This document shows positions 4,555-28,043 of a stretch of DNA of 35,435 nt, in pieces. Position 1 is the first letter of the stretch, and each line of letters starts with the position of its first letter. The DNA is from Chloroflexota bacterium (lineage in GTDB: Bacteria > Chloroflexota > Limnocylindria > Limnocylindrales > CSP1-4). The stretch spans positions 1-35,435 of the forward strand of contig DAHXON010000030.1 in assembly GCA_027364875.1 (NCBI GenBank), given 5' to 3'. The position numbers and the translations under genes are program-made. Below the pieces are notes generated by a model, which was not told where the DNA came from, searched no databases, and saw only the letters and a program-made list of their open reading frames with translations.

Positions 4555-5253
4555 TCAGCCGATTGGCTGTGGCTTCATGAGCACTCCCAGCCAGGCCGAA
4601 GTGGTCGATCCGGTCAGATCGACCTCCAGAACGTAGAGCCCGGATGGCCATGACACGGACGCGCCGGCCGGCGGCTCGGCGACCGCTCCGCCCGAACCCG
4701 CGGCGGCTGCGAGCCGGCCGACGAGCTTGCGCGCGGTGGCCGAGCCGCCCGGAGCCTGCCACCACAACCTGCCCGTCCAGGACGGCATCGAGCTCCCGGC
4801 CGAGACGTTCGGCTGGCAGAAGCCGAGCTGGCGGACGTCGCCGGACACTAGCGTCGCGACCGGGATCGTCGACTGGACGGGCGCCTCACCGGGGCCTTCC
4901 GAGACGGCGTTTATTACCAGCCAGGTCCGGACCACCCGGCCGAGTTCCATGTCATCCACCACGACCAGCCAGCCGGCGTGGCTCTGGCAGAGACCGGAAA
5001 GGACGTCGTCCTCTCCGGGAGTGGCCTTGCTCGTGGCCCGAGGCGGAGTGGCCGCCGCAATATCCGAAGTGGACGCGGTTTCGGAGACCGCAACCGGGGA
5101 CGAGGTGGCCGGCTCGGCGGGATTACCGCCCGGCCACGGCTTGGCGATCGCAACGATCACCAGGAAGGCGGCAGCCGCGAGCCCGAGCCGGATCCGCCAT
5201 CGGATGCCACCCGTCTTGAACCGCCCCCCAAACCCCTCGCCGTATGGACCCAA
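4555..5253 (-). CDS. membrane-anchored protein of unknown function
   Basis: This 232-residue protein has a short basic cytoplasmic N-terminus, one hydrophobic segment at about residues 22-39 (LGLAAAAFLVIVAIAKP) and a Pro/Ser/Thr-rich extracytoplasmic stalk to about residue 80. A folded domain follows, with two well-separated cysteines (GLCQSHAGW and LGFCQPNVS) that could form a disulphide. The pattern is a single-pass anchor with an outside domain. The start is a TTG with GAGG 8 bases upstream; no in-frame ATG precedes the membrane segment. It sits between the hybrid kinase and uxaC on the same strand. I do not recognise a family and assign no function. Confidence 0.65.
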   Translation of the reverse strand: MGPYGEGFGGRFKTGGIRWRIRLGLAAAAFLVIVAIAKPWPGGNPAEPATSSPVAVSETASTSDIAAATPPRATSKATPGEDDVLSGLCQSHAGWLVVVDDMELGRVVRTWLVINAVSEGPGEAPVQSTIPVATLVSGDVRQLGFCQPNVSAGSSMPSWTGRLWWQAPGGSATARKLVGRLAAAAGSGGAVAEPPAGASVSWPSGLYVLEVDLTGSTTSAWLGVLMKPQPIG

Positions 5254-19636: not shown

Positions 19637-19802
19637 ACTCACCCGACCGTTTTGGGAAGCGGCATTCTGCCGGGGGCCTGGCCTCATGGAAAGGCTAGAC
19701 TCACGATGCGGTCCGGCTGATGGCCGGCCTCCGGGGCCCGGACTCCGGGGATACGTTGATCCGGCGGGAGCCGCCCGCCCATCAGGAGCCTGGAGGAGTC
19801 CA

Positions 19803-20183
19803 GTGTTCAGAGAGAGCCACGCGTTCTCCGGCTTCTCGTCGAACGACATTCCGGCCTGCCTGGACTTCTACGGCCGAAAGCTCGGCCTCGATGTAACCCA
19901 GGCAAACGGCATGCTGACCCTGCGTCTGCGCGACGGCGGACGGGTCCTCATCTACCCCAAACCGGACCACGTACCGGCGCCATACACGGTCCTGAACTTC
20001 CCGGTTGAAGACATCGACCGGGCGGTCGATCAGCTGACGGCCCTCGGGATCGAGCTGGAGCGCTATCCCGGCATCCCCCAGGACGCCCGCGGCATCGTCC
20101 GGCCGGAGCGGCCCGAGCAGGGACCGCCCATCGCCTGGTTCAAGGATCCGGCGGGCAACATCCTGGCGGTCGTCCAGGGCTAG
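19803..20183 (+). CDS. VOC family (glyoxalase/bleomycin-resistance fold) protein
   Basis: This 126-residue single-domain VOC protein has the two beta-alpha-beta-beta-beta modules of the family: FSSNDIPACLDFYGRKLGLDV at the N-terminus and a C-terminal AWFKDPAGNILAVVQG, where the DPxGN motif marks the second half. VOC proteins act as metal-dependent lyases, dioxygenases or drug-binding resistance proteins; nothing here decides which. The GTG at 19803 is supported by GGAGGAG at 19792-19798. It is divergent from the MFS exporter and convergent with a small membrane protein. Confidence 0.88.
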   Translation: MFRESHAFSGFSSNDIPACLDFYGRKLGLDVTQANGMLTLRLRDGGRVLIYPKPDHVPAPYTVLNFPVEDIDRAVDQLTALGIELERYPGIPQDARGIVRPERPEQGPPIAWFKDPAGNILAVVQG

Positions 20184-23449: not shown

Positions 23450-23851
23450 ATGGCGGGCACGGGCGCCAGGACACGGATAGGTGAAGTCAGGACGGTGGGC
23501 ATACCTGTCACCGACCAGGATCGAGCCGTCAGCTTCTACGTCGAGAACCTCGGGTTCGAGAAACGGCTGGACGCGGCCTTCGGGCCCGGGCGGCGCTGGG
23601 TTGAGGTTGCGCCTCCCGGCGCGACCACTTCGATCGCCCTGATGAGCGTTCCCGCGGGCGGCGCGGGCGTGGACACACAGATCCGACTCGCGACGGACGA
23701 CGCGGCCGCCGCGCACGCCGACCTGCGGGCCCGCGGCGTCGACACAGACGAGGAGCTTCTCCTCGTCCCGATTCCGATGTTTGCCTTCCGCGACCAGGAC
23801 GGCAACCGGCTGGTGATCGTCCAGCAGCCCGGCGCCGGTTCCAGGCCCTAG
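23450..23851 (+). CDS. VOC family (glyoxalase-like) protein
   Basis: This 133-residue VOC protein is of the single-domain PhnB/glyoxalase-like type: VGIPVTDQDRAVSFYVENLGFEK at the N-terminus, WVEVAPPGATTSIALM in the middle and FAFRDQDGNRLVIVQQ at the end, where DQDGN is the family DPDGN-like turn. The ATG at 23450 is supported by GGAGG 5 bases upstream. It differs clearly from the other two VOC proteins in this window, so they are not recent duplicates. It is followed on the same strand by the PPOX gene after a 77-base gap that contains a direct repeat. The enzyme reaction is not predictable. Confidence 0.87.
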   Translation: MAGTGARTRIGEVRTVGIPVTDQDRAVSFYVENLGFEKRLDAAFGPGRRWVEVAPPGATTSIALMSVPAGGAGVDTQIRLATDDAAAAHADLRARGVDTDEELLLVPIPMFAFRDQDGNRLVIVQQPGAGSRP

Positions 23852-24378: not shown

Positions 24379-25205
24379 CGTCCGAGCGGTCGAACCGGGA
24401 GCCGGTCGGGCCGGCGGGCGGCTACGCCGAGATCAACGGGCTGCGCCTCTACTACGAGGTCCAGGGCAGCGGGCGGCCTCTTGTCCTGATGCACGGCGGC
24501 GTCGGCGCGAGCGAGATGTTCGCGCCCTTGATCCAGCCCCTCGCCGCGAGGCGGCAGCTGATCGCCGTCCATCTCCAGGCCCACGGGCGGACGGCGGACG
24601 TGGACCGGCCGCTCCGATTCGAGACCATGGCCGACGACATGGCCGCACTGGTATCGGACCTGGGCTACTCCTCGGCCGACTTCATGGGCTACTCCCTCGG
24701 CGGAGGCGTGGCCCTGCAGACCGCTATCAGGCATCCGCAAGTGGTTCGGAAGCTCGTTCTCATTTCCACCCCGTTCCGCCGCGACGGCTTCTACCCCGAG
24801 GTGCTCGCCGGCATGGCCCAGATGGGACCCGAGGCTGCGCGCTACATGCCCCAATCCCAGCTTGCCCAGCTCTACACCGACACGGATTGGGGCGCGCTGT
24901 TCACCAAGCTCGGCGAGTTGCTCACCCGCGACTACGACTGGTCCGACGGCGTGGCGGGGATCCGGGCGCCGGTGATGCTTGCGTATGCGGATGCGGACGC
25001 TGTCAGCACGGCCCACATCGCCGAGTTCTACCGGCTCCTGGGCGGCGGACTCCGCGACGCGGGCCTGGACGGCGGCGGCCGGCCGATCCATCGCCTGGCG
25101 GTCCTGCCGGGCGCGACTCACTACGACGTCCTGACGCACCCGGCCCTGCCGTCCGCGGTCATCTCGTTCCTGGAGGCTCGCGCCACCGCGCCGGTAGCTT
25201 CCTGA
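24375..25205 (+). CDS. alpha/beta hydrolase
   Basis: This 276-residue alpha/beta-hydrolase-fold protein lacks a signal peptide, so it is cytoplasmic. The oxyanion region LMHGGVG lies at 38-44, the nucleophile elbow GYSLGG places Ser107, and YADADAVS (204-211) supplies the acid, Asp206 or Asp208. GATHYD places His249 as the catalytic base. The short helical lid lies between residues about 135 and 185. Its ATG overlaps the PPOX stop by four bases. Such hydrolases cleave esters, lactones or C-C bonds. Pairing with a PPOX protein could suggest a two-step degradation, but the substrate is unknown. Confidence 0.9.
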   Translation: MTSERSNREPVGPAGGYAEINGLRLYYEVQGSGRPLVLMHGGVGASEMFAPLIQPLAARRQLIAVHLQAHGRTADVDRPLRFETMADDMAALVSDLGYSSADFMGYSLGGGVALQTAIRHPQVVRKLVLISTPFRRDGFYPEVLAGMAQMGPEAARYMPQSQLAQLYTDTDWGALFTKLGELLTRDYDWSDGVAGIRAPVMLAYADADAVSTAHIAEFYRLLGGGLRDAGLDGGGRPIHRLAVLPGATHYDVLTHPALPSAVISFLEARATAPVAS

Positions 25206-25244: not shown

Positions 25245-25271
25245 TGTCGATTCGAACTGTCGTGCGTCGTC
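25245..25271 (+). promoter_or_regulatory. ECF42-type promoter upstream of the VOC gene
   Basis: TGTCGA (25245-25250), 17 bases, CGTC (25268-25271). This matches the ECF42 promoter pattern as I recall it (TGTCGA at -35, CGA/TC at -10). It is repeated with the same spacing before the YCII-sigma operon. The VOC start lies 64 bases after the -10 element. Confidence 0.7.
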
Positions 25272-25334
25272 GGGTTGCTGGACGGTCGATTCGATCGGCC
25301 GTCGATCAAGCACTCGAGCGAGGAGACCGACGCA

Positions 25335-25673
25335 ATGGCAACTCATGTGATCCACGTCGAAGTCGTTGGCCGCGACGGCGAGAAGCTCCAGAAGTTCTAC
25401 GCGGAGGCGTTCGGCTGGGGTATCGAAACCAACAATCCCGGCGGCTACGGGATGCATCGCGAGGACGGCGGGCTCACCGCGGGTATCGGCAAGTCGCCGG
25501 ACGGCGGCCAGGGCCGCGTCACCTTCTACGTCCATGCCGACGATCCGGAGGGAACCCTCCGCAGGATCGAGAAGCTCGGCGGCAAGGTGATCATGCCGCT
25601 GACCGAAGTCGCTCCCCAGACCACTATCGCGCTCTTCGCCGACCCGGAGGGCCACGTCGTCGGGCTGATGTAG
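25335..25673 (+). CDS. VOC family protein, probable ECF42 regulon member
   Basis: This 112-residue VOC-fold protein has THVIHVEVVGRDGEKLQKFYAEAFGW at the N-terminus, VTFYVHADDPEGTLRRIEKLGGKVI in the middle and IALFADPEGHVVGLM at the end. It resembles the putative glyoxalase/CFP30-like group that is common beside ECF sigma factors. The ATG at 25335 has AGGAG 9 bases upstream. It is transcribed towards the sigma factor gene, and a strong shared terminator separates them. A promoter-like element identical in its key bases and spacing to the one controlling the YCII-sigma operon lies upstream. That makes it a likely target of the sigma factor. Its biochemical activity is unknown. Confidence 0.88.
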   Translation: MATHVIHVEVVGRDGEKLQKFYAEAFGWGIETNNPGGYGMHREDGGLTAGIGKSPDGGQGRVTFYVHADDPEGTLRRIEKLGGKVIMPLTEVAPQTTIALFADPEGHVVGLM

Positions 25674-25710: not shown

Positions 25711-25747
25711 GGGCGGGGTCGCGGATTGCGACCCCGCCCATTTCATT
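25711..25747. terminator. intrinsic terminator between the VOC and sigma factor genes
   Basis: GGGCGGGGTCGC (25711-25722) and GCGACCCCGCCC (25728-25739) form a perfect 12-bp stem with a 5-base loop, followed on the plus strand by ATTTCATT. It sits between convergent genes and may act in both directions. Confidence 0.88.
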
Positions 25748-27074
25748 GGCGGGTTTCGGCGAGGCGGCGCTGGAGGAACCGGCGCTCGGCGTCGTTGACG
25801 GCCAGGGCCGCGGCCCGTTCGTACTCGGCGACGGCCTCCGGAAGGCGACCGAGCCGGCGCAGCATGTCGGCTCGCGCCGCCGGCAGGAGGTGATAGCCGG
25901 CCAGCCGCCCTCGAACCATCGGGTCGTCCAGCAGTGAAAGCCCGGCTGCCGGACCATCGGCCTGCGCGACCGCGACAGCCCTGTTGAGCGTGACCACCGG
26001 GTTCGGGTCGATCCGTTCGAGGCCGGCGTAGAGCGTGGCAATTACCCGCCAGTCGGTTCGAGCGCCGTCGATGGTTCGGGCGTGCTCGGCGGCGATCGCC
26101 GCCTGGAGCAAGTAGCGGCCTGCAGGGACGGCCCGGGCGGCGGCGAATCCCAGATCGAGCGCCACGAAACCGCGCTCGATCTCGCCCCGTTCCCAAAGAG
26201 CGCGGTCCTGATCCTCGAGAAGAGCTATCGAGCCGTCTGACGTCAGCCGAGCATCCCGGCGGGAGTCCTGGAAGAGAAAGAGCGCCAGCAGGCCGTGCGT
26301 CTCGGATCGAGCGGGCAACAAGCCGGCGAGAATCGAGGCAAGCCGAATCGCCTCGGCGCACAGCTCCTGTCGAACCGACAACTCGCCCGACGTCGCCAGG
26401 TAGCCCTCGTTGAAGACCAGGTACAGGGTCGCGAGCACGCCGTCCAGGCGCGCCGGCAGTTCGTCGCTTGTGGGAACGCGGTACGGGATTCCAGCTTCGC
26501 GGATCTTGCGTTTGGCCCGAACGAGCCGCTGGGCCAGAGTCGCCTCAGGCACGAGAAAAGCCCGCGCGATCTCCGGCGTGGTAAGTCCGCCGAGCGTACG
26601 CAGGGTCAGGGCGACGCGGGCGTCGAGCGGCAGCGCGGGATGGCAGCACGTGAAGATGAGTCGGAGGCGGTCGTCCTCGAGCCGGTCCTCGCTCCCGATC
26701 TGCATCGAATCGACCTCCCCTTCCGTTTCCCGGCCCAGACGGTCCAGCTTGTCCGCCTGCCGGCGCTCGCGCCGGATCCGGTCGAGGGCCCGGTTGCGTG
26801 CCGCAGTCGTCAGCCACGCCGCCGCGTTGGCAGGGATGCCATCCCGGGGCCACGTCTCCAGGGCGGCGGCGAAGGCTTCGGCGACAGCCTCCTCGGCGGC
26901 GTCGAAATCGCCGCCCAGGAACCTGATCGACGTCGCGAGAACCGCGCCGTAGGCCTCTCGATAGGCGCGCTCGATCGCGGCGCCGGGGTCGGTGGCGGTG
27001 GACGCGGCTGGGCCGGCGGCGGTGGACGCGGCTGGGTCGGCGGCGTTGGGCTCGGCGGGGTCGCGAGCGGCCAC
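25743..27074 (-). CDS. ECF sigma factor with C-terminal TPR-like domain (ECF42 type)
   Basis: This alternative sigma factor has an unusually long C-terminal extension. Of about 443 residues, the N-terminal part holds sigma region 2 (VLATSIRFLGGDFDAAEEAVAEAF, then the WLTTAARNRALDRIRRER segment) and sigma region 4 (LTLRTLGGLTTPEIARAFLVPEATLAQRLVRAKRKI). The last 230 or so residues form a helical TPR-like domain beginning near LYLVFNEGYLA. This architecture, plus the adjacent upstream YCII/DGPF gene, is the hallmark of group ECF42, in which the C-terminal domain replaces an anti-sigma factor as the control element. No anti-sigma gene is present. I chose the GTG at 27074, two bases after the YCII stop. 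A longer in-frame version starting at 27221 lies inside the YCII gene and reads as Arg/Pro-rich. An Ala/Ser/Thr-rich N-terminal linker is encoded by a duplicated 24-base unit. Confidence 0.92.
   Translation of the reverse strand: MAARDPAEPNAADPAASTAAGPAASTATDPGAAIERAYREAYGAVLATSIRFLGGDFDAAEEAVAEAFAAALETWPRDGIPANAAAWLTTAARNRALDRIRRERRQADKLDRLGRETEGEVDSMQIGSEDRLEDDRLRLIFTCCHPALPLDARVALTLRTLGGLTTPEIARAFLVPEATLAQRLVRAKRKIREAGIPYRVPTSDELPARLDGVLATLYLVFNEGYLATSGELSVRQELCAEAIRLASILAGLLPARSETHGLLALFLFQDSRRDARLTSDGSIALLEDQDRALWERGEIERGFVALDLGFAAARAVPAGRYLLQAAIAAEHARTIDGARTDWRVIATLYAGLERIDPNPVVTLNRAVAVAQADGPAAGLSLLDDPMVRGRLAGYHLLPAARADMLRRLGRLPEAVAEYERAAALAVNDAERRFLQRRLAETRQ
26994..27041. repeat. 24-base tandem duplication in the sigma factor gene
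   Basis: Two 24-base units (26994-27017 and 27018-27041) differ at a single base. They encode two copies of an eight-residue Pro-Ala-Ala-Ser-Thr-Ala-type unit in the N-terminal linker of the ECF sigma factor. Confidence 0.85.
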
Positions 27075-27076
27075 GG

Positions 27077-27475
27077 TCAGGTCGCGCGGCCGGGCACTCG
27101 GGCGGCCGGCTCCGGTCCGGTCATGCCGGGTTGCGGGACGATCGGGCGGACCTCGATCGAACCTAGCATCGCGGCCGGGCAGCGAGCCGCCGCCTCGAGG
27201 GCTTCGTCGAGGTCCCGGCACTCGAGGATGTAGTAGCCGCCCAGGACCTCCTTCGTCTCGGCGAACGGCCCGTCGGTGATCAGCCGGCTGCCATCGCGGA
27301 GCCGGACCGTGGTCGCGGAGCCGGAAGCCGCCAGCCGCTCGCCCGCGACGCGAATACGACGCTCATCGAGCCAGTCGTTGTACTCGAGGAATGGCGCCGA
27401 GATGCCCGCTTCGGCCGGATCCGCGCCCCGACCCTGCTCGCTCTCCGGCGTGTAGACCAGAAGGATGTATCTCAT
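27077..27475 (-). CDS. YCII/DGPF-domain protein, partner of the ECF sigma factor
   Basis: This 132-residue YCII-related protein begins MRYILLVYTPE and has the diagnostic DGPF motif at residues 68-71 (ITDGPFAETKEVLGGYYIL). DGPF proteins are the constant genomic companions and targets of ECF42 sigma factors; their biochemical role is not established. The ATG at 27475 has GGAGG 7 bases upstream. The C-terminal 25 residues are Pro/Ala/Arg-rich, past the domain. The sigma factor gene follows with only two bases between stop and start. A promoter matching the ECF42 pattern lies upstream, implying positive autoregulation of the pair. Confidence 0.93.
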   Translation of the reverse strand: MRYILLVYTPESEQGRGADPAEAGISAPFLEYNDWLDERRIRVAGERLAASGSATTVRLRDGSRLITDGPFAETKEVLGGYYILECRDLDEALEAAARCPAAMLGSIEVRPIVPQPGMTGPEPAARVPGRAT

Positions 27476-27545: not shown

Positions 27546-27572
27546 GACGAGCACGGAGCCGGCGAATCGACA
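27546..27572 (-). promoter_or_regulatory. ECF42-type promoter of the YCII-sigma operon
   Basis: On the minus strand TGTCGA (27572-27567), 17 bases, CGTC (27549-27546) lies about 70 bases upstream of the YCII start. The element has the same key bases and spacing as the one before the VOC gene, and both share the extended box TGTCGATTCG. Confidence 0.75.
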
Positions 27573-28043
27573 ATCGGGCGGCAATTGCGGCACACGTTCC
27601 GGGAATCGGCCGCCGTAGCGCTCGTGGCATCCGCCTCGCGCAACGCCCCCTTCTCGCGCGGCGGTGGTGGTGGCGAGGAAGGGGCCGCAGCGGCCCGGCG
27701 CGCGGCCGGCGGAAGGGACCGCCGGCGCGGTGCGCCCCTGCCGCGGCCCATCTGCGCGCGATTCTTGAACAACTTACATGGGGCGGAAGTTGTTCGAGGA
27801 ATCGAGGGCTTCAGGGCGGCCGAAAGACGCGTTGGCGGCCGTTCCACGCACGAACTGTGGCGCGTCGGGGCTCCAACTGCGTGTCCCGGGCGCCTGGTTC
27901 TCGAACAACTTTCGCCTGACGGAAGTTGTACAGGTTCTGGGGCTCGGCCCGGCGCGGGAGCGCGGTGCGGGGGCGCGGCCACGGCTCGGCCGGACGCGGC
28001 GCGGCCCGGCGCGGGGCCCGGCACGCGAAGGATTCTGACAACC
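27573..28043. other. long intergenic region between the YCII promoter and GH12 gene
   Basis: Several Arg/Ala/Gly-rich open frames exist on both strands, but none has a ribosome site or a recognisable protein, so I call no gene. The middle of the region (27764-27934) is a palindromic element described separately. The part at 27640-27760 and 27955-28025 is very GC-rich simple sequence. Confidence 0.5.
27764..27934. repeat. composite palindromic element with structured core
   Basis: Two related palindromes share the form GAACAACTT-N11-AAGTTGTT. The first is at 27767-27795 (9-bp arms) and the second at 27905-27929 (7-bp arms); both spacers end in CGG. The facing arms AAGTTGTTCGAG (27787-27798) and CTCGAACAACTT (27900-27911) are perfect 12-base inverted repeats of each other. 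The outer arms match at 10 of 12. The core also folds: GACGCG (27826-27831) pairs with CGCGTC (27861-27866), stacked on CCAC/GTGG (27844-27847 with 27857-27860). It could be a mobile intergenic repeat (MITE-like), a small RNA or a double operator. No other copy is seen in this window. Confidence 0.6.

Follow-up and report, generated by a model that had tools for sequence, protein, structure and literature searches.

The question raised by this locus is whether a sigma factor of the ECF42 type, encoded behind a YCII gene in an operon with a promoter of its own, also controls a separate gene for a small VOC (glyoxalase-like) protein on the opposite strand. Our analyses of the window, by which we mean the whole stretch of 35,435 nucleotides (contig C132 of the assembly), and of 177 genomes of the same class make it very probable, on the strength of sequence comparison, that the site upstream of the VOC gene serves as a promoter for the neighbouring ECF42 sigma factor.

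Results

The site upstream of the VOC gene is located at 25245–25271 on the plus strand, and both the coordinates and the bases given for it in the original prediction were correct. It has the form of an ECF42-type promoter, TGTCGATTCG-N13-CGTC (full site TGTCGATTCGAACTGTCGTGCGTCGTC), in which TGTCGATTC would be the -35 and CGTC the -10 element, and 63 nt separate its 3' end at 25271 from the VOC gene (25335–25673, plus strand), whose product is an Rv0577-like protein of 112 residues. Transcription would start a few bases past CGTC, and the 5' untranslated stretch (25272–25334, plus strand) contains a GAGGAG ribosome site. The VOC gene and the sigma factor gene (25743–27074, minus strand, with an inferred GTG start at 27074) are convergent by their coordinates, as had been predicted, with a terminator-like hairpin (25711–25739) between them. 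The first gene of the sigma operon is a YCII-domain gene with a DGPF string (27077–27475, minus strand), and the ECF42-type promoter of that operon, TGTCGATTCGCCGGCTCCGTGCTCGTC, is at 27546–27572 on the minus strand. Two further VOC genes are present nearby, at 19686–20183 and 23450–23851, and none of the window's three exact ECF42-type sites is upstream of either. Upstream of the YCII promoter are two near-identical palindromes, GAACAACTT-N11-AAGTTGT, at 27767–27795 and 27903–27929, 136 bases apart; the pair did not arise in shuffles of the window, was found among 278 loci only in three copies of this region, and could be a regulator's paired operator.

Several marks identify the sigma factor. 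Matches over the cut-off were obtained to Pfam Sigma70_r2 and Sigma70_r4_2 and to NCBIfam sigma70-ECF, and its three closest named relatives are from Chloroflexi MAGs. The sigma2 and sigma4 domains are followed by DUF6596 (residues 210–307) and a helical C-terminal extension, residues 207–443 being almost all-helical in the structural model (mean pLDDT 82.8), and the extension has the length of about 200 residues that marks ECF42 factors. Pfam gave no TPR match in the extension; its best Foldseek matches were mostly TPR proteins, with 0 of 1152 at E ≤ 0.001. The neighbouring gene has a YCII domain over the cut-off as well as the DGPF string and stops a few bases short of where the sigma gene is taken to begin, and no anti-sigma gene was found among the seven neighbouring proteins scanned. 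By the marks tested the protein is a sigma factor of the ECF42 type, and the TPR nature of its extension is supported, not settled. The N-terminal codons of the gene contain an imperfect repeat (26985–27045, AASTAAGPAASTAT), in a part of the protein where model confidence is low.

The rarity of the site depends on how much of it is counted. The short form, TGTCGA-N17-CGWC, has three exact matches in the window compared with a mean of 0.33 in dinucleotide shuffles, and three were reached in 1 of 100 shuffles. The expectation of 0.13 such matches offered in the original prediction is arithmetically right for equal base frequencies, but it was set against two matches and the window has three, one of which (26368–26394) is internal to the sigma gene and was set aside. 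The accompanying argument that two sites are unlikely by chance is only modest for the short form and strong for the extended form, TGTCGATTCG-N13-CGTC, which was observed twice against a mean of 0.01 in shuffles, with two or more in 0 of 100. The genome-wide scan for the short form that had been proposed as a check gave 21 matches across the assembly versus 5 for the reversed pattern, and only the extended form is confined to the two window sites: in the whole assembly (3.82 Mb, 208 contigs) it has exactly two matches, one upstream of the VOC gene and one upstream of the YCII-ECF42 operon, and three matches with one mismatch occur elsewhere. The short pattern is thus only modestly unusual, whereas the extended pattern is highly unusual. 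When a crude reading-frame filter was applied to the other 18 short matches, two were just upstream of a gene frame, judged by eye as glycoside-hydrolase-like (contig C152) and LacI-like (contig C172), and neither site has the TTC extension. A near-match about 170 bases upstream of a second YCII gene (G000:C22) has two mismatches and CGCC in place of the -10 element, and was left out of the count.

A search of the 177 genomes with the VOC protein (E ≤ 1e-15) identified 71 places in 61 genomes, and the 200 bases upstream of each (less at contig ends) were scored against TGTCGA-N16/17-CG[AT]C, with a maximum of 10; three duplicate loci (L135, L155 and L168) had been removed before counting. A total of 42 places scored 9 or 10 (12 and 30, respectively), with a spacing of 17 in 34 and of 16 in 8, and all 42 sites start 75–99 bases upstream of the start codon that the alignment indicates. 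The reversed motif reached 9 in three of the 71 places, and for each of the 42 sites no more than 10% of the shuffles of the same 200 bases scored as high. Families f1 and f4 have a site at 42 of their 43 VOC places, a distant second copy in G082 being the one without. None of the 28 places in families f3 and f5 has a site (scores ≤ 8), and all the genomes in which these lie, except G154, have an ECF42 match; the genomes are related to one another and these counts are not independent. VOC proteins with a site have identities to the window protein down to 49%, and the promoter spacer varies freely, which together indicate that the site has probably been kept by selection and not by recent descent alone. 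A pattern that included a fixed downstream string proved too strict, with one match in 61 genomes.

The 42 VOC promoters yield the consensus TGTCGATTC-N7/8-GCCGTT-CGTC-GT-N4-GTGA, which provides a sharper query for finding ECF42 targets by sequence. The GTGA, 6 bases past CGTC, is conserved at 62–64% at each base and may mark the transcription start; the window VOC site has CTGG there. Leaders of the VOC genes fold better than their shuffles in 34 of 42 cases (z < 0), 24 of them with z < -1 and the mean z being -1.13. For the window VOC leader z is -3.18, with a predicted hairpin at about 25281–25303, directly past the inferred transcript start, and among relatives the position of the predicted hairpin is kept while its sequence differs.

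If the site is a true promoter, it could still belong to another ECF sigma factor of similar specificity in the same genomes, since the assembly contains six other, weak sigma-like matches (E 5e-6 to 7.5e-4) and an ECF42 match is missing from some of the genomes that have the site. Searching the 177 genomes with the sigma factor at E ≤ 1e-40 identified ECF42 in 92, of which 56 have VOC as well and 36 have no VOC match at threshold; VOC only was found in 5 genomes and neither in 80, a co-occurrence with a Fisher p of 1.5e-15 (1.8e-12 without 19 small genomes of family f2), uncorrected for kinship. Among the VOC-only genomes, G086 and G127 have contig-end pieces of an ECF42 gene, and G061, G125 and G154 only distant sigma matches, the VOC gene of G061 and of G125 having the site. 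Promoters of the YCII genes were examined in 38 ECF42 loci, fewer than all ECF42 matches, and one locus in which no YCII gene was found (L104) was dropped; the site is upstream of the YCII gene in 35 of the remaining 37, and the reversed motif in 0 of 37. That the same site precedes the YCII genes of ECF42 loci, and that VOC follows ECF42 within the window's own genus (present in 8 of 8 ECF42-positive and 0 of 13 ECF42-negative genomes), both speak against another ECF factor as the reader of the site, which we consider improbable.

Sigma factor and site-bearing VOC gene are both present in 37 genomes, on separate contigs in 30 and on the same contig in seven, all of the latter belonging to the window's genus, with the two genes 76–3967 bases apart and convergent by coordinates. 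One ECF42 place per genome was used for this comparison, and second places, checked by eye, gave no further shared contig. Genes on separate contigs of a draft assembly may still be close together, but the site in these genomes is more than a component of a single VOC-sigma gene block, and the small self-contained regulon originally envisaged does not hold as a neighbourhood unit, as VOC is on another contig with its site kept in 30 of the 37 genomes. The same observation bears on the proposal that VOC transcription comes mostly by readthrough from the hydrolase gene upstream, with the site adding little. That gene ends at 25205 on the same strand, and a terminator scan found none in the gap of 129 bases, but in those 30 genomes the site is kept at the same distance upstream of VOC, and predominant readthrough is very unlikely. 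That the site arose by coincidence in a GC-rich genome with abundant TCGA and CGTC can practically be dismissed: the short form does have 21 matches in the assembly, including one internal to the sigma gene, but the extended form is present twice for an expected 0.01, the site precedes 42 of 43 VOC places of f1 and f4 while the spacer changes, and it was found conserved upstream of orthologues on other contigs. Through those 42 sites, the co-occurrence and the separate contigs, the comparison lends good support to the predicted membership of the VOC gene in the ECF42 regulon.

The VOC protein matches PF18029 and PF00903 over their cut-offs, and its model resembles VOC folds, with 216 structural matches at E ≤ 0.001. 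In the PDB set its best sequence matches are 3oxh and 2r6u, which are Rv0577-like; Rv0577 has two VOC modules, judged by two matched stretches, whereas the window protein has one. Alignment of 26 orthologues (of the 42 with a site) revealed 28 invariant residues. The metal-ligand glutamate in the last strand of glyoxalase I presumably corresponds to G110 here, a position at which all 26 of the 26 aligned orthologues have glycine. A classical glyoxalase reaction is therefore doubtful, and we take the protein as a small-molecule binder or an enzyme of another kind. Methylglyoxal detoxification was not adopted as its function because it rests on names only.

A motif-only scan of the 177 genomes with TGTCGATTC-N13-TCGTC gave 56 matches, spread over 45 genomes, compared with 0 for the reversed control, and 39 of the 45 also have an ECF42 match. 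The other six are G014, G023, G027, G072, G105 and G120, of which G014 and G072 are >90% complete; the site in G014 is internal to a gene. Inspection of 21 loci, out of the 56 sites, identified six operon-type YCII genes, nine MANYLL-type YCII-like genes and three window-type VOC genes, the rest being one SnoaL gene (G077), one other VOC gene (G023) and one with nothing convincing. The MANYLL-type genes, each with its own ECF42-type site, are from one genome each (L053, L260, L261, L264, L265, L266, L267, L273 and L274) and are on a different contig from the sigma gene wherever the latter was found; BLAST matched their products weakly or not at all to the window YCII protein, and L260 has no Pfam match at 0.001. 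Among the sites inspected, those in G008, G011, G014, G027 and G092:C25 are not followed by a credible gene start, which indicates that chance sites exist.

Discussion

Our results suggest the following course of events at this locus. The active sigma factor would join RNA polymerase and recognise TGTCGATTC as the -35 and CGTC as the -10 element, at a spacing of 16–17 bases, and two units would then be transcribed: the convergent VOC gene and, as positive feedback, the sigma factor's own YCII-sigma operon. The VOC protein would most likely bind or convert a small molecule met during stress. Sigma activity is probably set by the C-terminal helical extension. In those parts of two reports that we consulted, the extension of ECF42 factors is essential for activity and its partner had not been identified in print (PMC8999054, PMC9023288). 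One speculative reading, which we regard as unlikely, is that the VOC or the YCII protein binds the extension and reports its ligand, closing a sensing loop, even with the genes mostly on separate contigs; if true, it would supply the signal partner that ECF42 factors have so far lacked. That the VOC target follows the sigma factor through the class, even on other contigs, is in any case a hint at the purpose of the ECF42 response.

Previously studied ECF factors have both similarities to and differences from this system. The ECF42 factors of Streptomyces venezuelae studied by Liu et al. in 2018 reportedly use a TGTCGA and CG[A/T]C motif and have the DGPF operon as their only target. Like the window factor, they have a C-terminal extension, described as TPR-rich, and an adjacent YCII/DGPF gene, according to the sections consulted of one report (PMC8999054). 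The original prediction treated the DGPF operon as the known ECF42 target, but it is not the sole one: as described in the consulted portion of a study of Sinorhizobium meliloti, overproduction of the ECF42 factor RpoE10 raises six genes, including two operons with glyoxalase-like genes, and TGTCGG-N17-CGTC, with the spacing counted from the printed sequences, precedes the mapped operon starts of its targets (PMC6180224). As in the window, RpoE10 is encoded downstream of a YCII gene. In the same portion of that study, the S. meliloti YCII-sigma operon is unresponsive to RpoE10, whereas in the window the extended string is common to both promoters, and the glyoxalase-like genes are in two-gene operons unlike the lone window VOC gene (PMC6180224). 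Since ECF42 factors with glyoxalase-like targets are in print for S. meliloti, this kind of target is already known (PMC6180224, consulted portion). In the consulted parts of the literature on ECF42, DGPF, YCII and glyoxalase (PMC6180224, PMC8999054, PMC9205884, PMC3776920, PMC8103513 and PMC9023288), no VOC-type ECF42 target was found beyond that of S. meliloti. The present analysis adds a VOC target that has been retained in two families of the class, mostly off the sigma contig, together with an extended consensus. Mycobacterium tuberculosis SigG belongs to another ECF group than ECF42. In the excerpts consulted of one study, the two genes most induced by this ECF factor have glyoxalase-like domains, and, in contrast to the window, no YCII gene is mentioned for it (PMC3776920).

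Candidate targets of several types were also found beyond the class. The sequences around 80 ECF42 loci from many phyla, limited to the neighbourhood of the sigma gene, contain 59 sites in 47 loci versus 0 for the reversed motif, 32 of them upstream of 31 YCII genes and eight upstream of VOC genes. Six of those eight VOC sites are outside Chloroflexi records, in Polyangiaceae, Methylobacter, Methylomonas, two Nitrospira and Terriglobia. Other candidate targets were SnoaL-type (4), AHSA1-type (3), and MAPEG, DinB, DUF1905 and BNR-repeat genes (1 each); three sites have no reading frame downstream and the remaining sites are unclassified. Plausibly, the targets of VOC and YCII type, and those of SnoaL type that some genomes have, are small-molecule binders or converters. 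Among plasmid records, the VOC protein has matches in 13, all at <34% identity, and ECF42 relatives are present in 129; of five annotated plasmid ECF42 regions, those of Chroococcidiopsis, Nostoc and Tsukamurella include VOC genes within 4 kb and those of Nitratireductor and Streptomyces do not. In a cyanobacterial MAG (Pantanalinema, L248), three ECF42-type sites are arranged in a row at 4752–4957 upstream of one YCII gene.
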